Source of the DNA: an uncultured Erysipelotrichaceae bacterium
GTDB lineage: Bacteria > Bacillota_I > Bacilli_A > Erysipelotrichales > Erysipelotrichaceae
Length of the DNA: 64,000 nt
Direction of reading: 5' to 3'
Assembly (NCBI GenBank): GCA_947649125.1
Contig: CANSQL010000001.1
Location: forward strand, 62,001 to 126,000
The position numbers and the translations under genes were made by a program. The notes beneath the pieces are model-generated. The model was not told the DNA's origin and ran no database searches. It worked only from the letters and a program-made list of their open reading frames with translations. This document shows positions 39,534 through 51,421 of this stretch, piece after piece; position 1 is the stretch's first letter; the number at the start of each line of letters is the position of its first letter.

Positions 39534-39577
39534 GAAAAATAACCGCTGTTTTCTCATCAGAGAAAAGCTAACGGTTA
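39534..39577 (-). terminator. Intrinsic terminator after the 39575 gene
   Basis: AACCGttagcTTTTCTC pairs with GAGAAAacagCGGTT (two-part stem) on the minus strand, followed by five U. It overlaps the last codon of the hypothetical gene. Confidence 0.7.
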
Positions 39578-40351
39578 TGCTTCTGTCTTTTTAGTGATTT
39601 TCTTTAAGTATTTTTCCAGCTTCTTTTTCATTGAATCTACGATCAATTCACTTTCCATGATTGCCCTTGTACAGCCTGCTTCATCATTTTTCATAAAGCA
39701 TTCGGCTATTTTCTTGATTTCTTCAAAGCTTGATCGTGCACTGCGCATCGAATCAAAATTCAAGGTGTGTGTACAATGAAAATTTTCAATAAAATACAAG
39801 CGATTCACATCGGGATTATATAATGCAAAATAATGATCATCACCGCAGATATATAAGCAGCTGCTGAAATTGTACATATACGGTAAAACACCGTATGCAT
39901 TTTCAATAATCACATCCTGAAAGCTGTTGATAAAGCGCTTATACTGCTTCAGCTCCAATAAGACGATTTCCTTGGTATACAGGCGATTCATTCTTACATC
40001 AAACATCGGAATATACATATCCTCACCTGCATACGGAAACGACTTTAATTCCTTGCGCATTTGATCGATATCGACATTCATTTGATGTTTGCGCTCCTGA
40101 TAATCTAAATCGGCCCAAAAGTCGTGCATATCGACATAGGTTGTCAAATAAGTATCCTCAAAGGCTTTTTTATTCAAAATGCCCTCGTAGATCGTTTCTA
40201 ATTGATAAAAGGACCATTCATCCTTTACGACGCAGGCGATTCCGTATTCCTTAAAGGTAATCTGCATCTGCTTCAGCTTATCACGATAAATACTCAGCTT
40301 TTCAATTTTTTTATGATATTTTTTATTGAGGATTGCCTCGATATTTTTCAT
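39575..40351 (-). CDS. Hypothetical protein (258 aa) coupled to rsmE
   Basis: No family is recognised. The protein is soluble and lacks a signal peptide. It has a lysine-rich, coiled-coil-like N-terminus (KKYHKKIEKLSIYRDKLKQM), a central region rich in Tyr, Phe and Asp, and a basic C-terminus (KKKLEKYLKKITKKTEA). It starts 29 nt before the rsmE stop with AGGGG about 8 nt upstream, so it is translationally coupled. Many aromatic residues and a repeated D/Y pattern suggest a structured domain, but no catalytic motif is evident. Confidence 0.7.
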   Translation of the reverse strand: MKNIEAILNKKYHKKIEKLSIYRDKLKQMQITFKEYGIACVVKDEWSFYQLETIYEGILNKKAFEDTYLTTYVDMHDFWADLDYQERKHQMNVDIDQMRKELKSFPYAGEDMYIPMFDVRMNRLYTKEIVLLELKQYKRFINSFQDVIIENAYGVLPYMYNFSSCLYICGDDHYFALYNPDVNRLYFIENFHCTHTLNFDSMRSARSSFEEIKKIAECFMKNDEAGCTRAIMESELIVDSMKKKLEKYLKKITKKTEA

Positions 40352-41093
40352 TTGTAACGCCCCTTATTTCATATTCATAATACATCGACAATACATTGAC
40401 AATCGATATTGCCGCTGTTTCTGCCCTTAAAATGCGTTTTCCCAGTGATACGCAATGAAAGCCCGCCTGCATCAGTTGAGCGGCTTCCCATGGCTCAAAG
40501 CCGCCTTCGGGTCCGATCACCGCCAACACACTTTTGATATGAGGATGCTCATAAAGCAGTGATAAAATATGCTCACTTTCACTGTCTGAGCGCTCATAAG
40601 CGACCAGCTTTAAATCGGCTTCTGTCTCACACAGTTGCTCCAGCGTCATCGGCTCATGCACATGAACCAAATCACTGCGGCGGCATTGCTCGCAAGCTTC
40701 CTGTGTAATCTTATTCCAGCGCTTCAGCTTCTTTTCCTTTTCCGCTTGCTTCCATTTAACAACACAGCGGTTTGCCAAAAAGCCGGATATTTCATTCACA
40801 CCCAATTCGCTGCATTTCTGTAACAAATAGTCCCAACGCTCACCTTTGATCAAGGCAGGCGCTAAGTGAATGGAAATCGCACTGTTGACACTCGGCATTT
40901 GTTCGATAATTGAAGCATACCACTTTTCATCATTCATCAATTCAGCCAACCAGACATTTTCTGCCTCATCAACCAAGCATATCTGATCGTGCGGCTTCAT
41001 TTTCAATACCCGTAACATATGATGAAGCTGTTCTTCATCCAACATCACCGGCTGTTTTTGATCAATGATTCCCTGTATAAAATACTGCTGCAT
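40323..41093 (-). CDS. rsmE: 16S rRNA (uracil1498-N3)-methyltransferase RsmE
   Basis: A 256-residue SPOUT-fold methyltransferase that modifies U1498 of 16S rRNA near the decoding site. An N-terminal PUA-like domain (HHMLRVLKMKPHDQICLVDE) precedes the knotted domain with LAPALIKGERWDYLLQKCSE, the conserved ACEQCRRSDLVHV region, VIGPEGGFEPWEA and SLGKRILRAETAAI. Length and motif order match the family. It appears to start the two-gene unit with the hypothetical 258-residue protein. Confidence 0.94.
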   Translation of the reverse strand: MQQYFIQGIIDQKQPVMLDEEQLHHMLRVLKMKPHDQICLVDEAENVWLAELMNDEKWYASIIEQMPSVNSAISIHLAPALIKGERWDYLLQKCSELGVNEISGFLANRCVVKWKQAEKEKKLKRWNKITQEACEQCRRSDLVHVHEPMTLEQLCETEADLKLVAYERSDSESEHILSLLYEHPHIKSVLAVIGPEGGFEPWEAAQLMQAGFHCVSLGKRILRAETAAISIVNVLSMYYEYEIRGVTNEKYRGNPQ

Positions 41094-41177
41094 TGTATCA
41101 CCTTAACTATTTTACCTTATTTTTCACATAAAGAAAAGGAAAATGTGCAAAAGATCATTGTACATCTCCCTTTTTTC

Positions 41178-41861
41178 TTACTCAAACGGATGCGGAATCA
41201 AGGAAATTACCACAATATCCTGAATTGTCTCGACTTTAAGTTCAGCGCGTAATTGCTTTGATAACAAATAGCTTTCATGATATTCCCAATCATATTCAGC
41301 TAAGTCAAGATAAGCAATATAATCCCTTAATACCGTTTGATTGATCACAGTATACTGCTTCGGCAGCTTTAAGCTGATCACTTTTCCGCTCGCATGTTCG
41401 ATCTCATAGGACAAAAATGCTGTTTCAAATTGATCGTTCGGCAAATAAATGCTGTTTCTTATATAACTCATTTGTTCACCGTGAAATTTCTTGGTTCTGG
41501 TAATCATCTCCCGATTGTCTTGTAAAAAAGTGAATAAAGAAGCTTTGATTAAACCGATTTCCTTTAACTCTTGTAACTTCATCAGAGTTTGATTGGAAAT
41601 TGTTTGATTATCGATTTGATAATACAAAACGGCAGGCTCTCGACTGTCTGAAGTATCAATTTGATAGCTTTGATCACTGTATTTGGCATAAACAGAATCG
41701 ATAAATTGATGATTGGAGCTGCTTTTTTTATCATCTAATATAGCGGCGAGTGTATCATGAAGTGCATCGGTATTCATATCCTCTAAAAGATACAGAATCC
41801 CTGCCGGCAGAATAAGTGAGATTATCGTGATGAAAATACCGATGAAAATTATGTTACGCTT
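41178..41861 (-). CDS. Membrane-anchored protein of the two-component/ABC operon
   Basis: Not recognised as a known family. From ATG 41859-41861 (GGAGATTG upstream) it starts MKRNIIFIGIFITIISLILP, one membrane helix, followed by an extracellular domain of about 190 residues. The domain is acidic and helical at first, then beta-rich. Its start overlaps the histidine kinase stop by 8 nt, so it is the last gene of the accessory operon. Topology fits a sensory or accessory subunit acting with the kinase, but this is inference from position only. Confidence 0.7.
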   Translation of the reverse strand, partial: KRNIIFIGIFITIISLILPAGILYLLEDMNTDALHDTLAAILDDKKSSSNHQFIDSVYAKYSDQSYQIDTSDSREPAVLYYQIDNQTISNQTLMKLQELKEIGLIKASLFTFLQDNREMITRTKKFHGEQMSYIRNSIYLPNDQFETAFLSYEIEHASGKVISLKLPKQYTVINQTVLRDYIAYLDLAEYDWEYHESYLLSKQLRAELKVETIQDIVVISLIPHPFE

Positions 41862-43230
41862 CATATACAATCTCCAACAGAAAGCTTGCAGCGGTTCCCT
41901 TTCCGACTTCACTTTCTATATGCAGTTCACTGTGATGCAGCTTTAAAATACGCGTACAAAGTGATAAACCAAGACCATAGCCGCCGCTTTTTTTACTGCG
42001 TGCTTTATCGACCGTATAAAAACTTTCATCGATTCGTGCCAATTCGCTTTGTGCCATTCCGATGCCGTGATCACTGATCGTGATCAGATAGCCGTCATCC
42101 GTTTTCTTACCGCTGAGGGTAATATTTATTTCGTTATCACTCGCTTTTTTGGCGTTTTCCAACAGATTCATAATACATGATATTAACAGCTCACGCTCAC
42201 CTAAAACATATGCATGTTCCACATTAGCGTGTACTTCGATCATCAAACGCTCCTCGGCCAGCTGCAGCACCGCTTGAAGCAATTCATACGCATCGATTTT
42301 TTGTAATTCAATCCGGTTTGCGGAAAGCTCCATCAACTCTAACAGCCGATGGGATAATAATTCTAATCGTTTTGTTTCGCTGTATATATAATTTAATGCC
42401 TTTTCTTTGTCTTCCGCCGAATATTTTGCCTGTCGTAAAATCTTGGTATAACCGATGATTGACGTCATCGGTGTTTTCAATTCATGCGTGAAATTGGCGA
42501 TAAAATCCTCTCGCTGCTTTAACGCCTGTTCCAGCTCCTGTTGTCTTTTTTTGATCGCTTCGATCATTACGACAAAGGAAGCGGCAAGCTCTCCCACCTC
42601 ATCATGAGAAGTGATCGGGATCACCGTGTCTAAATCACCGCCGGCGACAGCTTTAGTCGCTTCATTTAAGCTTTGAATCGGCTTTGTTAAAAAGTGCGCT
42701 AATACGCTGATTAATCCCGCACATATGAATAATAACAGTATTTCAATAAAATAAAAGTAAGTAAGATTTTGATTTCTTACCTCATAGAGTGTCGAAATAT
42801 CATAAGCACCGATTACTGTGATTGTCTCCTGATTCATTTTCACCCTTGAACAAAGCAAGACATAGTGCATATTTTCATAAGTGATCATATCTCCGTTTTG
42901 TATTGTCTTTGAATCAATCGTAAACGGAAGATTGCCCCAAATAAGCTGTTCATTAACAGCGACATACAGCTTTCGTGAATTCCCCATATAAGCACTGAGC
43001 GTATACAGCTGATCCTTTAAGCGTTCTTGATCTATCGTTGAATCGGCACCGAGTTCCGTAATCATTGTTTCAATACTGTATTTTTCCAAATCAAACTCTG
43101 CCGTATTGGTTTTCATTTGCAGCTCAAAGGCATGTTGAAAATGATTATGAATCAAAAGAATACCGGATAAGGAAAACATCACAAGAATGATCATCATTGT
43201 ACCGCTGACAATTTTAAATGCGAATTTCAT
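41854..43230 (-). CDS. Sensor histidine kinase (HAMP/HisKA/HATPase_c)
   Basis: A 458-residue membrane kinase from ATG 43228-43230 (GAGGTG 5 nt upstream). Helix 1 is at residues 8-27, an extracellular sensor domain spans about 28-155, and helix 2 is at 158-180. HAMP follows (PIQSLNEATKAVAGGDLDTV), then HisKA with phospho-acceptor H249 in NFTHELKTPMTSIIGY, then HATPase_c with N (CIMNLLENAKKAS), G1 (ISDHGIGMAQ) and G2 (GGYGLGLSLC) boxes. It partners the adjacent OmpR-type regulator. The sizeable sensor loop argues against a BceS-type intramembrane sensor. Confidence 0.93.
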   Translation of the reverse strand: MKFAFKIVSGTMMIILVMFSLSGILLIHNHFQHAFELQMKTNTAEFDLEKYSIETMITELGADSTIDQERLKDQLYTLSAYMGNSRKLYVAVNEQLIWGNLPFTIDSKTIQNGDMITYENMHYVLLCSRVKMNQETITVIGAYDISTLYEVRNQNLTYFYFIEILLLFICAGLISVLAHFLTKPIQSLNEATKAVAGGDLDTVIPITSHDEVGELAASFVVMIEAIKKRQQELEQALKQREDFIANFTHELKTPMTSIIGYTKILRQAKYSAEDKEKALNYIYSETKRLELLSHRLLELMELSANRIELQKIDAYELLQAVLQLAEERLMIEVHANVEHAYVLGERELLISCIMNLLENAKKASDNEINITLSGKKTDDGYLITISDHGIGMAQSELARIDESFYTVDKARSKKSGGYGLGLSLCTRILKLHHSELHIESEVGKGTAASFLLEIVYEA

Positions 43231-43231
43231 C

Positions 43232-43873
43232 TTACACCTCAAAGCGATAGCCGATTTTAGGCAATGTCTGAATCGTTTTTTCCAAATTCAGCTTTTTGCG
43301 CAGTCTTTGAATATGCAGATCGACCGTTCTTGTATCTTCATCATCACTTTCCCATACGTTTGCCAGTATTTGTCCTCGTGATAATGCAGTGCCGCCGTTT
43401 TCCGCCAAATAAAGCAACAGCTCGTATTCCTTTAAGGTCAAATGAACCGGCTGATCATGTAATGTGACACTTCTTTGTCGTGTATCGATTTTAATATCGG
43501 GCAATCGAATGACACTTTTGTATCTGCGCAGCACACAGTGAATGCGGGCAAGCAGCTCTTCCGGTTCAAACGGCTTCACGATATAATCATCGGCTCCCAT
43601 ATTCAAACCCTTCACACGATCCTGTAGTTCTCCTTTTGCGGTTAAAAAGATGACTGGAATATTTTCACGACGTGCATAAGCAAGCAATTCATAGCCGTCC
43701 AGCTTCGGTAACATGATATCCAACAACAGTAAATCATAGTCTCGCTCACAGATCAAATCTGCCCCGGCTTCCCCGTCAAGCGCATAATCTGTATCATAGC
43801 CGTTTGCCTTTAAGCACATGATGATTAAATCCACAATCGGCTGTTCATCCTCTACGATCAATATTTTGCTCAT
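43232..43873 (-). CDS. OmpR/PhoB-family response regulator
   Basis: A 213-residue two-domain regulator. The receiver has acidic residues in LIVEDEQPIV, phospho-acceptor D52 in LLLLDIMLPKLDG, and Lys in DYIVKPFEPEELLA. The C-terminal winged helix contains VHLTLKEYELLLYLAENGG and VDLHIQRLRKKLNLE. It lies 4 nt after the permease stop and directly before the kinase. Direct repeats upstream of the operon's first gene (48321-48351) are candidate binding sites, suggesting autoregulation of the whole operon. Confidence 0.94.
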   Translation of the reverse strand: MSKILIVEDEQPIVDLIIMCLKANGYDTDYALDGEAGADLICERDYDLLLLDIMLPKLDGYELLAYARRENIPVIFLTAKGELQDRVKGLNMGADDYIVKPFEPEELLARIHCVLRRYKSVIRLPDIKIDTRQRSVTLHDQPVHLTLKEYELLLYLAENGGTALSRGQILANVWESDDEDTRTVDLHIQRLRKKLNLEKTIQTLPKIGYRFEV

Positions 43874-43877
43874 TCGC

Positions 43878-45671
43878 TCACTTCCGTTCTCTCAGTAAAT
43901 TATTATACAAGAAAACGCTTAAAAATACTATGACAGTGATTGTGATAACAGCTATTCCGTGATGCAGCGCCCATGACAAATTGAATAACGGAAACAGTGC
44001 GTTCAGCTTTGTTTCGAAAATCGTTAATAAATACGGTAAGATACATACGATCAGGGAGACGATAAAGGCAGCGCTCATCTGCTTAATTCTCTGTGCGATC
44101 CACGCAATCAACAGTACCGTAAACAGATAGGATACATACTTGATGAAACAAAAGCCGATTATATAGGCAGCGATGGATATTTGATGCGGTAAGAATTCCA
44201 AATACTCAATGCTTGTGACAGACGCTCCTAACTCGGGAAAGCCGTACATGCGACCTATATGTGCCAGCTGTGAAGTCAGATAGATCGCATACAGCACGGT
44301 GCCGACAAGAAATAAAGCCATGATTTTATGATGAACGAGTGTTTTTCGTCCTTTCGGCGTAGAATGCAAGAGCAGAATAAAGCCGCTTTTGTATTCATTG
44401 ATAAATACCGGCAGTACTATAATCATCGTTATTATTAATAATAACATTTCATTTTCATTGATTCCCGACTGAACACCGAGCAGTTTGTGATATCCGCTGT
44501 CATAAACAAACTCAGCGTACTCATGGTTTTTCACATATTCGACCTTTGCTTCAATACGGGCAAACTGTGCTTTGGAGGCTAAAGTATCTTCATACGGTCT
44601 TTTGGCAATGTTTGCTTGTGTATTGGTCAGCTTGTTTGCCTGTACGAGTGCATCTATCTGAAGCAAGCCTTCCTCTGCTTCTTCATATTCCTTTTGAATT
44701 GATTGGATAAATTGTTCCTTTTCCTTTGTCAGCGGACCGCTCAAAGCTTCCATATATTCCTTGTAATAATTTTCCTGAAACGACAGATGCGTAGGTTGCT
44801 GCTGAAAATGATATACGGTAAATAACGCAAAAGCTATCATCGCAAGCAAGGCTTTATTGGTAATCAATACTTTATATAATTCAAAGCTGAATAAGCGATG
44901 AATTTTAATCGGAGGCTGATAGCTATTAAGTCTTACAAGTATACGATTTTCTTTCTTTGCGGTCTGCATGCCGTTTAAATAACGAAATACGGATAAGAAA
45001 CCAAATACAAAGATCCAAAGCAACTGAAGCAGCGGCAATATGATATGCTTATCAAGCATGATATTGAAAAATCGCAGCTGAGAATAGGTGCTGTACATCG
45101 CATTCGTATCAAATAATGCGATAAAATTAAAGCTTTTTAATATTCCGATCATGGAATCATAAGCAATCATACGGCTCATAAACAAACTGATAATAAACAA
45201 TATCGCTGTTACAAGCATGCACTCCATAATGCTTGAGAAGCGTATCGCCGCATAAAAGATCGTAACGGCAAGCATCCATAACATGAATAGTTTGGTAAGC
45301 AAAAACAGTAACAGATAAGTACCGACATTCAGCTTCAGTGTAGATAACATAAGCAGCGGCAGACTTTGAAGCGAAGCAGAAAGATTTCCGTAACCGATTA
45401 CAGAACCGTAATAAATGAAATTCATGCCGTAAAGCAACATTTCGATCAAAAAGGCTGTAATCGCTAAAGCCGCAAGCTTGGAAGCAACAGTAGTAATTTG
45501 TCCGTTTACCGTACTTTTGATTAACATCAACAGCTGTTTTTCCTTTTCCTCATAAATCACTGAAGTTGCCGCAACCAAAATCAATAAAAAAGCAAGAAAA
45601 TCAGTGATGGATACGCTTGTCAATGCTTTCACGCCTTGATCGATCTGAAAATCTGTTACAGTATCTAACAT
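43878..45671 (-). CDS. C-terminal permease fragment (597 aa) possibly still translated
   Basis: This frame keeps the first repeat's membrane part (helices from ITDFLAFLLILVAATSVIYE onward) and the whole second repeat, which restarts at HRLFSFELYKVLITNKALLA and has its own large outer loop and helices. The ATG at 45669-45671 has no clear Shine-Dalgarno sequence, so expression without the N-terminal part would be poor. It belongs to the ABC-2 type permease group that works with the adjacent ATPase, often in peptide-antibiotic resistance or export; the substrate is unknown. Confidence 0.55.
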   Translation of the reverse strand: MLDTVTDFQIDQGVKALTSVSITDFLAFLLILVAATSVIYEEKEKQLLMLIKSTVNGQITTVASKLAALAITAFLIEMLLYGMNFIYYGSVIGYGNLSASLQSLPLLMLSTLKLNVGTYLLLFLLTKLFMLWMLAVTIFYAAIRFSSIMECMLVTAILFIISLFMSRMIAYDSMIGILKSFNFIALFDTNAMYSTYSQLRFFNIMLDKHIILPLLQLLWIFVFGFLSVFRYLNGMQTAKKENRILVRLNSYQPPIKIHRLFSFELYKVLITNKALLAMIAFALFTVYHFQQQPTHLSFQENYYKEYMEALSGPLTKEKEQFIQSIQKEYEEAEEGLLQIDALVQANKLTNTQANIAKRPYEDTLASKAQFARIEAKVEYVKNHEYAEFVYDSGYHKLLGVQSGINENEMLLLIITMIIVLPVFINEYKSGFILLLHSTPKGRKTLVHHKIMALFLVGTVLYAIYLTSQLAHIGRMYGFPELGASVTSIEYLEFLPHQISIAAYIIGFCFIKYVSYLFTVLLIAWIAQRIKQMSAAFIVSLIVCILPYLLTIFETKLNALFPLFNLSWALHHGIAVITITVIVFLSVFLYNNLLRERK

Positions 45672-45793
45672 AGATTGATACGCACGTTGAATTGCCGTAA
45701 TACTTTGACTCGATACGCTGTTTTTTTGATTGAAAATCGATATTCCCTGTAGATCATCACTCTCAGATAAAATATCCTGAATCGCTTTTTGAT

Positions 45794-46066
45794 ATTGATC
45801 GATTTTCTCATGAGGAAAAGGGAAAGCTGATTCATGATGCCTATGAAAGAATCTATGCGATACAGCTCATTTATCATGTTCAAACAAATCTGAGCAGTGA
45901 AAATGAAGGTATGCGTACCTACGGTAAAACATTGCGTGAACAGAACAAAGACCTGTACAATCGATATTATGAGGAAGCGATGTCACAGCCTGTATTTCCT
46001 TACACCGGTGATTTTGAACACGAATATGCCTTATTGGAACAAGTGAAAAATTTGCGTTTTATCAAT
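45794..46066 (+). other. Inverted segment within the permease gene
   Basis: On the plus strand, 45804-46060 is open throughout and encodes a piece such as SHEEKGKLIHDAYERIYAI and, further on, QPVFPYTGDFEHEYALLEQV, typical of the outer loop of this permease family. It lies in the opposite orientation to the gene. The left end carries ATTGATCGAT (45794-45803). The right end carries ATCAAT (46061-46066), the complement of the site shortened by 4 bp. This marks an inversion between short inverted repeats. Confidence 0.8.
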
Positions 46067-46230
46067 CAGTTCTTGTTGAAGCAGTCGATAACCTTCATCA
46101 CTTAACTGCGCTTCCTTTCGTAAATAACTTTGATAATTTAAAAACGTGAAGTTTAATAAGGCGGCAGCCGCAAACAAGATCACAAACAGTCGATGACTGA
46201 ATATTTTCCACAATTCAAATTGAAGCAATT

Positions 46231-46956
46231 TCATAATTCCTCACCGTCGGAAAAGATATGCATACAGGCATCCTCTAAAGTTCCGCCCGGTGCATAGTGT
46301 GCAAGCAGCTGTTCTGCCGTCTGTTGCGGAAGCAAACTGCCGTCCTTTAATACTAAGATTGCCTCGGCAATATTTTCAATATCAGGAACGATATGCGTCG
46401 CTATCAGTATAATGCGATCTTTCGCCAACTGTTGAAGCAGCTTTTTTACCCGAATGCGCTCTTTCGGATCAAGTCCTGCCGTCGGTTCATCAAAGATCAT
46501 TAGCTTCGGCTCACCGATGATAGCACTCGCTATCAACAGTCTTTGTTTCATACCGCCGGAATACGTATGAATCTTACGATGAATATCATCCCCTAAATTG
46601 ACTGCTTTGATTGCCTCATCAATCATTTGCTTCGCTCTTTGCCTGTCAATGTTTTTTAAGGCAGCGATATAGCTGAGAAACATTCTGCCGCTAAAGCCGT
46701 GATACAACCCCTGTTGCTGCGGCATATAGGATAGAATATTGCGATAAGCACTGCTGTTTTCATATATATTTTGATTGTTCCATAGAATCGTTCCGGTATC
46801 TGCCTTTAAGTTGGTGGTAATTATTTTCATCAAGGTTGATTTTCCGGCACCGTTGGGTCCTAACAGTGCATAAATTCCCTTTTCACAAGTGAAGCTAATA
46901 TCTTTTAACACTTGTTGCTTGCCGTAGCATTTCGATATATTTTTAATTTCCAACAT
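46231..46956 (-). CDS. ABC transporter ATP-binding protein
   Basis: A 241-residue ABC ATPase. Walker A is LLGPNGAGKSTLMKI, the Q-loop is in SYMPQQQGLY, the signature is TYSGGMKQRLLIASA, Walker B is LMIFDEPTAGLDP and the switch histidine is in ILIATHIVPD. It resembles the BcrA/CcmA-type group paired with ABC-2 permeases. The permease ATG overlaps its stop (ATGA), a sign that the two form one transporter. It follows the propeller-like gene by 8 nt in the operon. Confidence 0.95.
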   Translation of the reverse strand: MLEIKNISKCYGKQQVLKDISFTCEKGIYALLGPNGAGKSTLMKIITTNLKADTGTILWNNQNIYENSSAYRNILSYMPQQQGLYHGFSGRMFLSYIAALKNIDRQRAKQMIDEAIKAVNLGDDIHRKIHTYSGGMKQRLLIASAIIGEPKLMIFDEPTAGLDPKERIRVKKLLQQLAKDRIILIATHIVPDIENIAEAILVLKDGSLLPQQTAEQLLAHYAPGGTLEDACMHIFSDGEEL

Positions 46957-46964
46957 AACAGCAC

Positions 46965-48290
46965 CTACTTTGCATTTTCAATCTTTAAATAATTCGCTTT
47001 TGAATTCCAATAATCCTCTTTTAAAATTAAGCCGTAATCGGTTGCGACTATATCCTGCTGAGTCGTGCCTGCCCAAGTCGTATATTCCTCACCGAGAGTA
47101 TAACCCATTTGCACAAAGTAGTATTTATCATTAGCTGCTAATATTTTAACAATATAATCGTTGGTATCCTTCAGTTGAAATTCACTTTGTTCCTTTGATT
47201 TTAAATCAATGATTTCGGCACGATCGATATGTGCCTCTTCATCCTTATAGTGATAGACCAACAGCTTATTATCGATAATCGGTGCTAATGTCATATCAGC
47301 TTGCGAAAGCTGTATAAAATCACTTTTCTGTCGTTTATTCATATCATAATATTTCAGAGTTTTACTGTGCTGTCCGAGCATATAGATGCCGTTCTCACCC
47401 ACTTTTATTTGTTCCGCATCTATAAAGCTTTCCTTAAACAGCGCTTCGCTTTTTTTAGATTCGATATCAAACAGCTTAATTTGAATATCAGAATGATACA
47501 TATTATCAATATAGCCTGATATATCATCATCAAACAAATTTGGATCCTGTGCATAAATGATTTCCTGAAGAATGATCTTATTATCATAAATACCGATAAA
47601 GGAATCATTCATCGCATCATCGATTTCCTCATAGCTGCCGTTATTAAGATTGATGGCAATTAATTTACGACTTGTTATATTCGTAGTAAAAGAATTTTGT
47701 TTATCTTGAATGTGCTCATAATATTCTAAAAATGTAAACATTTGATTTCCCTTTATCACATACGGCATCGTAATCTGGGTACCGCTCGGAACCGTAAACA
47801 GCTTTTTTCGATTGGTTCCGTCTAAATCCATGCGATAAACGGTCGAGGGATTCCCATTTTCCGATGTTTCACTTGTTGTGCCGTCAAAATTCATATGCAC
47901 CACATTGCCCGCTTCCTGTGCATTGACTAGGTATAAATGTTGATCGTAATAAAATATTTCATTTACTTCCCCGATTTTCAGATAAGCGCTGCAAGACTCA
48001 TCCTCATGTTTACAGTTCGGTTTGTTGCACAGATAGACTTCCTTTTGCGTCGCATAATCAAAATACATAATGTGTTCAAGGTCTTTGATCATGTAATAAC
48101 CGTTTTCATACGTTTGTACATCCCCTCTGTCAATCAGCTTCATTACCGCATCGTTTTTCGCTGCGATATCAGGTTTTGTATCGGTATTGTTACTTGCTTG
48201 TTCCATATGTTGAAAAACAACAATGAAAATCGACAGCGTTGTAATAATACCGAAAAGCGCACTTCCGATCATCAATATTTTTTTATTCAT
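46965..48290 (-). CDS. Membrane-anchored beta-propeller-like protein with Cys/His motif
   Basis: A 441-residue protein with one N-terminal membrane helix (ILMIGSALFGIITTLSIFIV) and a large extracellular beta-rich domain of repeated units such as TVYRMDLDGTNRKKLF and LFDIESKKSEALFK, resembling a DUF5050-type propeller. Near residue 85 is CNKPNCKHEDESCSAY, three Cys and one His in close spacing, which could bind a metal or form disulfides. GGAGG lies before the ATG. It is the first gene of the ABC/two-component operon, so it may capture or sense the operon's ligand; the function is not known. Confidence 0.75.
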   Translation of the reverse strand: MNKKILMIGSALFGIITTLSIFIVVFQHMEQASNNTDTKPDIAAKNDAVMKLIDRGDVQTYENGYYMIKDLEHIMYFDYATQKEVYLCNKPNCKHEDESCSAYLKIGEVNEIFYYDQHLYLVNAQEAGNVVHMNFDGTTSETSENGNPSTVYRMDLDGTNRKKLFTVPSGTQITMPYVIKGNQMFTFLEYYEHIQDKQNSFTTNITSRKLIAINLNNGSYEEIDDAMNDSFIGIYDNKIILQEIIYAQDPNLFDDDISGYIDNMYHSDIQIKLFDIESKKSEALFKESFIDAEQIKVGENGIYMLGQHSKTLKYYDMNKRQKSDFIQLSQADMTLAPIIDNKLLVYHYKDEEAHIDRAEIIDLKSKEQSEFQLKDTNDYIVKILAANDKYYFVQMGYTLGEEYTTWAGTTQQDIVATDYGLILKEDYWNSKANYLKIENAK

Positions 48291-48320
48291 TTGTATTCCT
48301 CCTTATTTGTTTACATGTAT

Positions 48321-48351
48321 TCTATCAAGGTGTTGTATCAAAAATGTATCA
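48321..48351. promoter_or_regulatory. Direct repeats upstream of the accessory operon
   Basis: TGTATCA occurs at 48334-48340 and 48345-48351, 11 bp apart (one helical turn), with a related TCTATCA at 48321-48327. OmpR-type regulators bind such phased direct repeats. They lie 31-61 bp upstream of the first start codon, in the promoter region. Confidence 0.5.
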
Positions 48352-48411
48352 TAATCTAAAGGATATGAAAAAAATTCATTTCTTAACGAAACAATATCTT
48401 TCTTATTTGAT

Positions 48412-48456
48412 AAAAAAACAAGACTGATCTACCTATGTTAGATAGAATCAGTCTTG
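48412..48456 (-). terminator. Intrinsic terminator after rluB
   Basis: CAAGACTGAT pairs with ATCAGTCTTG (10 bp) at 48419-48456, and seven U follow on the minus strand. Confidence 0.9.
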
Positions 48457-48480
48457 TATAATAATCAAATATCAGCTTTC

Positions 48481-49227
48481 CTATTCAAGGATTAAATGCT
48501 CGTAGGTTCCCTCTGACGCAAGCGCCTTCAGCTTTTTGATTTCAAACGGCTTTAAAATTCGGTAATCGCCTTTACTCAGATCTGATACGCTTAAAAAAGC
48601 TAATTGCTTGCGATGCAGTCTGCGCACTTGATAGCCGAGTGCTTCCATCATACGCTTTACCTGACGATTGCGCCCTTCCACAATCGTTAAATCAAAGGTC
48701 GTCTGCCGCTTTTCCTTTTCATAGGTGATATGCTTGATTTTTGCCGGTAAGGTTTTCATACCGTCGTCAAGCACAATACCGCTTTTTATTTTACGAATAT
48801 CTTCACTGCTTAACACACCGTTGATCGTTAAATTATAGATTTTAGGGATATGATGGCGAGGATGTGTTACTAAATTCGCAAACTCACCGTCATTTGTCAA
48901 TAACAATACTCCGCTTGTATCATAATCAAGTCTTCCGACCGTAAAAATACGTTCTTCACAGGCGATTAAATCAATCGCACGAAGCCGATCCTCGTTTTCT
49001 TCGTTGGTACAAACGCATTTTTTCGGCTTGTTCATAATAAAATACACCTTATTTTCACGAACGATCGCTTTTCCCTCGACGCTGATTTGATCGCCTCTTT
49101 TTACTTTCGTTCCAAGCTCGGTGACAATCACACCGTTGACCGTGACCTTGCCTTCGCTGATCAAAACCTCTGCCTTGCGGCGTGACGCGGCACCTGCCTG
49201 TGCTATTACCTTTTGTAAACGCTCCAT
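48481..49227 (-). CDS. rluB: 23S rRNA pseudouridine synthase RluB
   Basis: A 248-residue RsuA/RluB-family pseudouridine synthase. An N-terminal S4 RNA-binding domain (RLQKVIAQAGAASRRKAEVL) is followed by the catalytic core with the Asp in VGRLDYDTSGVLLLTNDGEF, then VEGRNRQVKRMMEALGYQV. It modifies helix 89-90 uridines of 23S rRNA in family members. Its place next to spmA-spmB-dacB matches B. subtilis (dacB-spmA-spmB-...-rluB). Confidence 0.93.
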   Translation of the reverse strand: MERLQKVIAQAGAASRRKAEVLISEGKVTVNGVIVTELGTKVKRGDQISVEGKAIVRENKVYFIMNKPKKCVCTNEENEDRLRAIDLIACEERIFTVGRLDYDTSGVLLLTNDGEFANLVTHPRHHIPKIYNLTINGVLSSEDIRKIKSGIVLDDGMKTLPAKIKHITYEKEKRQTTFDLTIVEGRNRQVKRMMEALGYQVRRLHRKQLAFLSVSDLSKGDYRILKPFEIKKLKALASEGTYEHLILE

Positions 49228-49354
49228 AGCTTCACTTCCTCGCTTTATTTGCTTTCTATATTTTACACAATATAAAGCGAAAAGTAAAAGAAATCTTTTA
49301 TAAAATATCTTGATGAGAAAGCTTTGTTAAGGAAAATAAAGAAAATCAGGTCTG

Positions 49355-49867
49355 TTATGCAAAGATCAACAAGGTTAAAAAGATGGCCATACCGATTCCC
49401 GCAATATCGGCAATCAGACCGATAGAAAGTGAATTGCCGATTTTTTTAATTCCGACACTGGAAAAATACAGCGTGATGACATACACCGTCGTATCGGTGC
49501 TGCCCTGAATAATACTTGCCATCATACCTGCCAAGGAATCGACACCGCAGGTTTTGAAAATATCAATCAATACCGCCAGTGAGGCACTTCCTGAGATCGG
49601 ACGAAACAGTACCATCGGCCATATTTGTGAAGGTATAGCGGTGCTGATATATTGAAATAAACCGGAGATAATATCCATTAAGCCGCTTTCTCGAAGCAGG
49701 GATATTGCACACATCATCGCTAACAGTGCCGGATATATATCTAAAAATAAGCCCATACCGTCCTTGACACCGGTTAAAAATACACTGTAGGCAGGAACTC
49801 GCTTACAAAGTGCGATAATAAAAATCAGTAGAACGAGCGCCGGCAAAATCAACGTACTGTCAATCAC
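49355..49867 (-). CDS. spmB: Spore maturation protein SpmB
   Basis: A 170-residue polytopic membrane protein of the nucleoside-recognition (Gate) domain family. The region KDGMGLFLDIYPALLAMMCA and the gate motif FRPISGSASLAVLIDIFKTC are characteristic, as is QGSTDTTVYVITLYFSSVGI. With SpmA it is needed for spore core dehydration in Bacillus and Clostridium. It overlaps spmA by 8 nt. Confidence 0.93.
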   Translation of the reverse strand: MIDSTLILPALVLLIFIIALCKRVPAYSVFLTGVKDGMGLFLDIYPALLAMMCAISLLRESGLMDIISGLFQYISTAIPSQIWPMVLFRPISGSASLAVLIDIFKTCGVDSLAGMMASIIQGSTDTTVYVITLYFSSVGIKKIGNSLSIGLIADIAGIGMAIFLTLLIFA

Positions 49868-50441
49868 GATGATTCCACCACCGATCTACAGCAATTCCGA
49901 CAAGTGACGCAAACATCGTACAAAGCACTGCCCACGGCATAAAATCGGTGACTTGTAATGAATGAAACTCACTGCGCAGCGCAATCAGTGTAGTAGGTAA
50001 TAAGGTAACTCCGGCAGTGTTTAATACAAGAAAAGTCACCATCGAGCGCGATGCCGTATCCTTTTTGGGATTATGGCGCTGCATTCCTTCCATCGCTTTT
50101 AAGCCGACCGGTGTAGCGGCAGAGCCTAAACCAAACATATTTACGGTAATATTGGTAGCGACATAGCCGAGTGTTTCCTCATCTTCCTTAAGATCGGGAA
50201 GCAGCCATTTCAAAAACGGATGGAATACCTTTTCCAATGCCGCAATCATTCCCGCTTCTCTTGCGACATACAGCACGCCGTTCCAGAAACATACCGTACA
50301 TACTAACGGTAAGACAAAGTCAAACGTATCTTTGCCGATATTTAAGCATACTTGATTGATGACATCGACTCGTCCGCTGACAAACGCAAAAATCAGCGAG
50401 GCACATATCATGATCAGCCATAGTATATTCATGAGAACCAA
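49860..50441 (-). CDS. spmA: Spore maturation protein SpmA
   Basis: A 193-residue membrane protein, partner of SpmB. Motifs include VCFWNGVLYVAREAGMIAAL, the gate helix ITVNMFGLGSAATPVGLKAM and TFLVLNTAGVTLLPTTLIAL. It overlaps dacB by 13 nt, giving the conserved dacB-spmA-spmB operon, expressed in the mother cell by sigma-E in B. subtilis. Confidence 0.93.
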   Translation of the reverse strand: MVLMNILWLIMICASLIFAFVSGRVDVINQVCLNIGKDTFDFVLPLVCTVCFWNGVLYVAREAGMIAALEKVFHPFLKWLLPDLKEDEETLGYVATNITVNMFGLGSAATPVGLKAMEGMQRHNPKKDTASRSMVTFLVLNTAGVTLLPTTLIALRSEFHSLQVTDFMPWAVLCTMFASLVGIAVDRWWNHRD

Positions 50442-51421
50442 CCGCCCTTCTCCTTGATCCTTTTCCCGCTGTATTCATATTCAAGCGTTATATCATCCTT
50501 TTTCACCGTTATTTTTAATACGCCGTCCTTTACCTCACTGTCTGTGGTTAAATCCACCGTGCCCTCTTTGGGAACAGAAATAAACACCGTTTTCTCAATA
50601 TCAAATTCATATTGATTCAATCGATACGTACCGGCCTTGATGATCGGATAAGCCTCATATTCTGAGAGCTGTTGTTCATGCTTGGTTTGGTGAAAGGCAA
50701 AATCACCGCCCATATTCAAGGTTACGACAATAGATTCCAAATCATTGTCGGCAGCGCTTGAAACAAGCGTTCGTCCGGCTTTCTTGGTATAACCTGTTTT
50801 ACCTGCCGTTGTCGCATCATAGGTAAACAGCAGCTTGTTTTTATTCATCCAGCGATTTCCTTTAAAATCATAATATTTACTTCCGGCAATTTCCTTAAAC
50901 GTATCATTCTGCATCGCATAGCGCATCAGCAATGCCATATCATACGCACTTGAGATATTACCGCCGTCTGTTTCATCTAAGCCGCTCGGATTACGAAAGA
51001 TACTGTCTTTCATCCCGATTTGTTCGGCTTTTTCGTTCATTTTGTCGACAAATCCATCGATACTGCCACCGACATGATCGGCAATCTCTACCGCTGCATC
51101 ATTACCGCTTCGTAACATCAAGCCGTATAACAGATCACGCAAAGTTACCTCATCACCGACCTTTAAGTAGATACTGGAGCCGTCGACCTTAAGTATCGCA
51201 TCGGATGCCTTCCAAGACTCCTCGAGCTTTCCCTCCTCGATCGCTACGATTGCGGTCATTATTTTAGATATACTGGCAACGCTTTGCGTTTCGTGCATCT
51301 TATCGGAATCTGTCACTGTACCGTCATTGCCGTTCATCACACAATAGCTCGCTTTAACATCACAAATACAGGCAAAAAACAACAGCATACAAATGAATCG
51401 CTTTCGCATAACATCCCTCAT
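50429..51421 (-). CDS. dacB: Sporulation-type D-alanyl-D-alanine carboxypeptidase (DacB-like)
   Basis: A 330-residue serine DD-carboxypeptidase (peptidase S11) that trims stem peptides; DacB in B. subtilis sets the cross-linking of spore cortex. A signal peptide spans residues 1-24. The active-site motifs are S50-x-x-K53 in VASISKIMTA, SGN in LRSGNDAAVEIADH and KTG in TAGKTGYTKKAGRTLVS. It leads the operon with spmA and spmB, and a sigma-E-like promoter lies just upstream, both pointing to the sporulation enzyme rather than vegetative DacA. Confidence 0.9.
   Translation of the reverse strand: MRDVMRKRFICMLLFFACICDVKASYCVMNGNDGTVTDSDKMHETQSVASISKIMTAIVAIEEGKLEESWKASDAILKVDGSSIYLKVGDEVTLRDLLYGLMLRSGNDAAVEIADHVGGSIDGFVDKMNEKAEQIGMKDSIFRNPSGLDETDGGNISSAYDMALLMRYAMQNDTFKEIAGSKYYDFKGNRWMNKNKLLFTYDATTAGKTGYTKKAGRTLVSSAADNDLESIVVTLNMGGDFAFHQTKHEQQLSEYEAYPIIKAGTYRLNQYEFDIEKTVFISVPKEGTVDLTTDSEVKDGVLKITVKKDDITLEYEYSGKRIKEKGGWFS

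Follow-up and report, generated by a model that had tools for sequence, protein, structure and literature searches.

A gene in a 64,000-nucleotide stretch of Erysipelotrichaceae DNA (the window) encodes a predicted surface beta-propeller, and comparison of gene neighborhoods shows that in Bacillota this gene is tightly linked to those for an ABC ATPase and a fused permease. The propeller protein is very probably an extracytoplasmic partner of the transporter. In the lineage of the window, the same kind of comparison shows that a two-component system and a second membrane-anchored outer protein have been added to the propeller–transporter unit. These results provide a widespread family, which Pfam and NCBIfam leave unnamed, with a partner and a conserved site, and with a setting in which it can be tested.

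The propeller protein and its family

The propeller protein is the product of the first gene of the operon:

46965..48290, minus strand: propeller protein, 441 aa (open reading frame list, helix and Cys count, structure model, fold matches, motif conservation)

Its single hydrophobic segment, residues 8–26, is an N-terminal signal-anchor helix, and the predicted beta-propeller domain covers residues ~55–440. The AlphaFold2 model, based on a 17-sequence alignment, is mostly beta with a mean pLDDT of 80.9 and a pTM of 0.77. The model was matched against solved structures with Foldseek and VIA-align 2. The best VIA-align 2 match is the propeller of an S9 carboxypeptidase (Z 18.2, rmsd 3.7, 298 residues aligned, covering residues 57–441), and oligogalacturonate lyase (Z 16.4, rmsd 3.8, 286 residues aligned) and the propeller-like EUBREC_1955 of Eubacterium rectale (PDB 3s25; Z 15.1, rmsd 4.2, 280 aligned, 10% identity) share the predicted fold. 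Since 884 of the 981 aligned chains reach Z 8, the likeness to EUBREC_1955 is one of fold only. When the propeller alignment was used for a profile search of the PDB, 19 matches had E ≤ 1, with designed Tako8 propellers at the top (2.7e-7), oligogalacturonate lyase at 4e-5, and the remaining matches weak. Collectively, the predicted model and these matches support the assignment of the protein as a beta-propeller. The first-pass annotation had described a propeller-like, membrane-anchored product, and both descriptions hold.

No Pfam or NCBIfam model scores above its curated cut-off with the window protein. When 17 family members were scanned, Pfam gave one weak propeller match and NCBIfam gave four lipoprotein models, each in only one or two of the members and listed without cut-offs. 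A Lachnospira eligens member is annotated as "hypothetical protein", and PADLOC returned nothing for either the propeller protein or the second outer protein. Moreover, the combination of this family with an ABC-2 exporter was not found in the titles and opening lines of abstracts that searches of one open-access library listed. No relatives were found among the viral contigs or phages searched, and the plasmid search gave only two L. eligens megaplasmid records, in which 29% of the query is covered. A propeller match at E ≤ 0.001 was obtained in 47 of 315 genomes of the order, in 17 of 392 of the phylum, and, for two Clostridia groups, in 125 of 250 and 124 of 247. These tallies, for which only the best few candidates of each genome received a score, are too high because of hits to nothing but the lipoprotein signal (query residues 1–42 or so). 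At E ≤ 1e-7, 29 of the 315 genomes of the order are left (counted by eye). Judged by these sequence comparisons, the family is real, widespread, and unnamed in Pfam and NCBIfam. Most of its motif-bearing members (88 of 101; see below for the motif) carry a lipobox-like signal, as scored with a loose pattern, while the window protein and three close relatives of the same genus have the helix anchor instead.

Linkage to an ABC exporter

The genes that follow the propeller gene in the window are an ATPase gene and a permease gene in pieces:

46231..46956, minus strand: ABC ATPase (ABC_tran; Pfam and NCBIfam scans)
46031..46234, minus strand: permease N-terminal fragment, 67 aa, with the first helix and a stop inside the inverted segment
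45811..46051, plus strand: ~241 bp of the permease gene in inverted orientation, covering part of the first outer loop (ends certain to ~3 bp)
43878..45671, minus strand: permease C-terminal fragment, 597 aa from the first ATG, with 11 predicted helices

The neighborhoods of 77 loci chosen by propeller similarity were mapped; there is kinship among some of these loci, and not all are independent. Seventeen came from the pattern and profile search, 20 were hand-picked from the list for the order (three of them from one genome, G012), and 40 came from the two Clostridia groups, one place from each of the best-scoring genomes, with genomes already in the set and G731 omitted. The control comprised 165 ORFs, each 250 aa or longer and taken either from two relatives or from the remainder of the window; this set still includes the relatives' operon neighbors. 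Both an ATPase and a large ABC-2 permease lie on the same strand within 3 kb of the propeller at 59 of the 77 loci, compared with one of the 165 control ORFs. Taken singly, at the same distance and on the same strand, the ATPase is found at 62 loci (five controls) and the permease at 63 (four controls), and one or the other is within 300 bp at 61 loci (two controls). The first-pass annotation had stated beforehand that its reading would fail if the genes did not co-occur in other genomes; propeller, ATPase, and permease do co-occur, as these counts indicate.

Seven loci have only one of the two transporter genes within 3 kb. Neither was found within that distance on the same strand at 11 (L079, L080, L083, L084, L085, L102, L103, L214, L217, L219, and L249). 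Some of the loci without a complete pair are cut by contig ends, and at L217 the pair is next to the propeller gene on the opposite strand. The tie to regulatory genes is much weaker. A response regulator or histidine kinase was found within 6 kb at 26 of the 77 loci, compared with 16 of the 165 controls, which leaves 51 loci without either on the same strand; regulation is thus not a fixed part of the propeller unit. Because most loci keep the ATPase and permease and most lack nearby regulatory genes, the main tie of the propeller is to the transporter.

Multiple propeller genes are present at 16 of the 77 loci. At L235 (2427–11669), seven consecutive Cys3-His propeller genes are followed by one ATPase and permease, with response regulator and kinase genes upstream. 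Arrays of propeller genes also occur at L076, L083, and L219.

The Cys3-His cluster

The window protein contains exactly three Cys residues, all of which lie in CNKPNCKHEDESC (residues 88–100) together with His95, in the arrangement C88-x4-C93-x-H95-x4-C100. In the model, this cluster is located on a long loop between strands 83–86 and 111–115. The four residues are invariant in the first alignment of the window protein with 11 relatives. In the 138-row profile alignment, the motif C-x4-C-x-H-x(4-13)-C is complete in 101 of the 105 rows that span the site, a count that favors the motif, given that it is part of the profile and also of one search pattern out of two. There is also some redundancy among the loci: L118 repeats L071, and the L123 fragment repeats part of the L072 gene. 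The C-x4-C-x-H spacing is constant in all 101 complete rows, the final loop varies between 4 and 13 residues, and 71 of these rows have the exact spacing of the window protein. With so many homologue rows intact, the Cys/His set is not due to chance, and its presence in a short stretch, as put forward in the first-pass annotation, is borne out. So is its conservation, the lack of which that annotation had named as grounds for refuting its reading.

The exceptions are L077, which lacks all four residues, L102 and L103, which lack the His and the third Cys, and L109, in which two Cys are aligned. L077 still adjoins a permease. On this comparison, the cluster is dispensable in some relatives.

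The loop is rather likely to be a putative metal site, probably for zinc, that would shape or gate the propeller. In another reading, which we consider doubtful, the three Cys and the His would not bind metal: two of the Cys would be joined by a disulfide that leaves the third free, or the stretch would be a structural turn in an anaerobic, reducing habitat. Against this alternative stand the odd number of Cys in the window protein, the retention of the His together with a fixed C-x4-C-x-H spacing and a variable last loop, and the exceptions, which lose the His jointly with at least one Cys.

The permease and its inversion

The nearest NCBIfam models for the ATPase include GldA, DrrA, and a lantibiotic-protection model, all of them below cut-off. 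PADLOC gives many matches for the ATPase (best mad3, E 3.6e-30), which are taken as generic ATP-binding similarity, and a marginal one for the permease (PDLC01861, E 0.00038). In three congeners the permease gene is intact, with an open frame of 788 codons that encodes 786 aa and 12 predicted helices, and with outer loops of ~175 aa after helix 1 and ~120 aa after helix 7. Twelve helices are predicted in 15 of 21 full-length copies and 11 in the other six. Among eight permeases scanned with Pfam, seven reach no cut-off; the L073 permease is above that of PF12698 ABC2_membrane_3 (47.3 versus 31.6) and a congener copy, L070, is just below it at 28.0.

The window differs from the congeners by the inverted segment, which is 97.1–100% identical to the three copies that carry it in the opposite orientation. 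Four bp of the relatives' permease sequence are missing at the inversion. Among the 11 inverted pairs of at least 10 nt listed in 45600–46300, none has its arms at the two ends of the inversion. A programmed DNA inversion switch was rejected as an explanation, since none of the listed inverted repeats flanks the segment and 4 bp have been lost. The inversion is a mutation or an assembly error. In the latter case, the operon would be intact in the living organism, and we give this an even chance. The genome is in 93 contigs, local mosaicism between related strains could mislead an assembler, and the ends, with their lost bases and lack of inverted repeats, are unlike those of a site-specific switch; against this, the assembly shows one copy of the region only, with clean junctions between its three pieces. 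If the segment is truly inverted in the organism, the broken reading frame probably leaves the pump inactive in this genome. The first-pass annotation had described a sensor–transporter operon and overlooked the split permease; its gene list stands.

The two-component system and the second outer protein

Three further genes of the operon, and a repeat upstream of it, may be concerned with its regulation:

43232..43873, minus strand: OmpR/PhoB-type response regulator (Response_reg and Trans_reg_C; domain scan)
41854..43230, minus strand: sensor histidine kinase (ATG at 43230; a TTG at 43242 is also possible)
41178..41864, minus strand: second outer protein, with a helix at aa 5–23 and an outer domain of ~200 aa (helix prediction, profile comparison)
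48334..48350, minus strand: perfect direct repeat GATACA-N5-GATACA, a candidate response-regulator site (alignment)

The kinase has two helices (residues 7–25 and 159–177) on either side of an outer segment of ~130 aa, followed by HAMP, HisKA, and HATPase domains. This agrees with the earlier claim of a kinase with a real extracellular domain. The second outer protein, likewise described there as membrane-anchored, indeed has one helix and a conserved domain; its ATG is at 41864 and not at 41861 as had been given. Of the structure predictions that were proposed for the two outer proteins, that of the propeller yielded a usable model and that of the second outer protein reached a pLDDT of only 38.

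The gene for the second outer protein is present in the window and at 10 of the 77 propeller loci, always directly 3′ of the kinase gene. Its homologues in six other genomes (L073–L075 and L095–L097) hold this position too, and a profile comparison relates them to the window protein (81% probability, E 1.2e-5). The gene order in these six is response regulator, kinase, second outer protein, propeller, ATPase, permease, which is rearranged relative to that of the window. A profile built from the second outer proteins identified one more member, in Lachnospiraceae L210 (E 8.5e-11), with the gene order of the window. Searches of Pfam and PDB profiles with this protein gave nothing convincing, and a YycH/YycI Pfam match was seen in none of nine members. 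Collectively, the six-gene set is not universal, with regulatory genes at about a third of the loci and the second outer protein at fewer still. The idea of a sensing and transport unit with two uncharacterized surface partners is supported by the conserved neighborhoods (propeller with ATPase and permease at 59 of the 77 loci, second outer protein at 10); the unit as assembled may not transport.

The position of the second outer protein raises the possibility that it and the propeller are signaling parts, which restrain the kinase until a ligand binds or the Cys3-His cluster undergoes a metal or redox change, with the transporter as regulated output. The genes of YycH and YycI, membrane proteins that modulate the kinase WalK, adjoin the kinase gene, and the arrangement in the window and at all 10 loci with the second outer protein recalls such modulators. 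In most loci, however, the propeller keeps with the ATPase and permease, while 51 of the 77 lack nearby regulatory genes, and we regard this alternative as improbable.

The GATACA repeat ends 43 bp before the propeller start, on the upstream side of the operon, and its 11-bp spacing suits OmpR-type regulators. Both half-sites are unchanged in all four genomes aligned, the most divergent one included. The pattern, which was chosen after viewing the sequence, has no other exact match within the window. Between rluB and the operon (48412–48457), a hairpin followed by a T run was picked out by eye on the minus strand; it is probably the rluB terminator. Promoter-like sites are not above chance (29 versus 26.7 expected); terminator-like sites are (11 versus 4.6 expected), all of them within genes. 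Rfam gave no match at the gathering threshold in 40000–50500.

Comparison with known systems and proposed function

As described in a review of these systems (PMC5786555), Cpr-type operons encode an ABC-2 exporter and a kinase with an outer loop of 113–117 aa, and in lantibiotic immunity LanI is a surface lipoprotein that binds the lantibiotic peptide. The window system resembles CprABC-CprRK and LanFEG in having an exporter of the ABC-2 class, its own response regulator, a kinase with an outer domain (~130 aa compared with the 113–117 aa of Cpr kinases), and a surface protein in the place of the lipoprotein; the ABC-2 assignment of the membrane part comes through the homologue L073 only, one of the eight permeases scanned. 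However, the Cpr and LanFEG permeases are two separate six-helix proteins of ~240–250 aa each (PMC5786555), whereas the permease of the three congeners is a single fused protein of ~786 aa with two large outer loops. The Cys3-His propeller as surface protein and the second outer protein after the kinase are further differences. With the two small permeases absent, the window system is Cpr/LanFEG-like and not a member. A lipoprotein is also encoded beside cprABC (C. difficile CD1348), for which the Cpr review describes no role in resistance (PMC5786555).

BceAB-BceRS likewise combines an ABC transporter that has a large outer domain with a two-component system. In this case, the permease has 10 helices with one domain of ~200–250 aa between VII and VIII, and the kinase loop is ~25 aa, according to the same source (PMC5786555). 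The window system differs in that its type of permease has 11–12 predicted helices, with outer loops that follow helices 1 and 7, and in the longer outer segment of the kinase. A precedent for a ligand-catching propeller lipoprotein is BtuG of Bacteroides, which captures vitamin B12 at the surface and is encoded beside a transporter gene (PMC6143338). Its partner, unlike that in the window, is a homologue of btuB, for B12 uptake, in a different phylum.

These comparisons lead to a tentative reading, to which we give slightly less than an even chance: the operon would encode a regulated Cpr/LanFEG-like exporter that removes a harmful, envelope-active compound, for which the propeller would be the receptor at the surface. 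In this scenario, the kinase, possibly together with the second outer protein, would sense the compound, e.g., an antimicrobial peptide, and the response regulator would switch the operon on, perhaps through the GATACA direct repeat. Like LanI in lantibiotic immunity, the propeller would capture the compound at the surface of the membrane, and it would then pass it on to the permease for removal. That the unit protects against a harmful compound is, by analogy, plausible but somewhat doubtful. Several propeller genes before one transporter fit interchangeable receptors, and if the propellers are exporter receptors, the arrays would explain how one pump serves several compounds.

A serious rival, which we consider rather unlikely, is that the cargo of the exporter is a peptide, lipid, or glycan made by the cell itself, for which the propeller would be a chaperone or release factor, not a receptor. 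ABC-2 transporters often export native cargo. Moreover, on the L. eligens megaplasmid (L152:6986-13045), a propeller–permease pair is followed by genes for a LytTR regulator, a kinase, and the AgrB/AgrD autoinducer system. On the other hand, the operon is accessory, being absent at its site in three congeners, and the window kinase carries a large outer segment. No recurrent cargo gene was noticed either, a weak point in that the gene labels comprised ATPase, permease, response regulator, histidine kinase, propeller, and second outer protein.

History of the locus

The receptor reading concerns an operon that lies within a region of exchanged DNA:

39800..50400 (approximate borders): interclade recombination tract of ~10.6 kb, with the operon, spmA/B-like genes, rluB, rsmE, and the ORF at 39575

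The flanking genes we take to be rluB, rsmE, and spmA/B-like from their sequences. Identity was scanned in 500-bp tiles of the window, of which those aligned over at least 250 bp were used, with 40.0–50.0 kb counted as inside. Relative to G005, the median identity is 81.0% outside the tract (77 tiles, 72–91) and 97.3% inside (20 tiles, 87–100), and relative to G006 it is 80.0% outside (57 tiles, 73–91) and 95.1% inside (20 tiles, 88–99). For G002 the values are 94.5% (56 tiles, 84–98) and 95.6% (20 tiles, 87–99), respectively, with a dip to 87–92% over the kinase and the second outer protein. Within the tract, the window is closest to G005 for the kinase, the regulator, and the second outer protein, and over most of the propeller gene and a portion of the permease gene it resembles G002 and G006. 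In three congeners (G001, G003, and G004), rluB adjoins rsmE and the operon is absent at the site; G004 has a divergent propeller–permease pair elsewhere in its genome. On the simplest reading of these alignments, the operon was acquired at the rluB–rsmE junction and was exchanged between clades, together with its flanks, by homologous recombination. That the tract is common to several species suggests that the unit is under selection in the gut.

In the broadest form of the proposal, which we consider unlikely, the Cys3-His propellers would make up a large class, unnamed as yet, of surface receptors that depend on metal and serve ABC-2 exporters in gut Bacillota. The arrays would then act as sets of exchangeable receptors, altering which compounds one pump removes, and the unit would spread between species by homologous recombination.

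On a smaller scale, the first ~55 bp of the permease gene (46178–46234) form a cluster of substitutions relative to relatives that are near-identical on both sides of it, and this cluster possibly stems from gene conversion by another permease.
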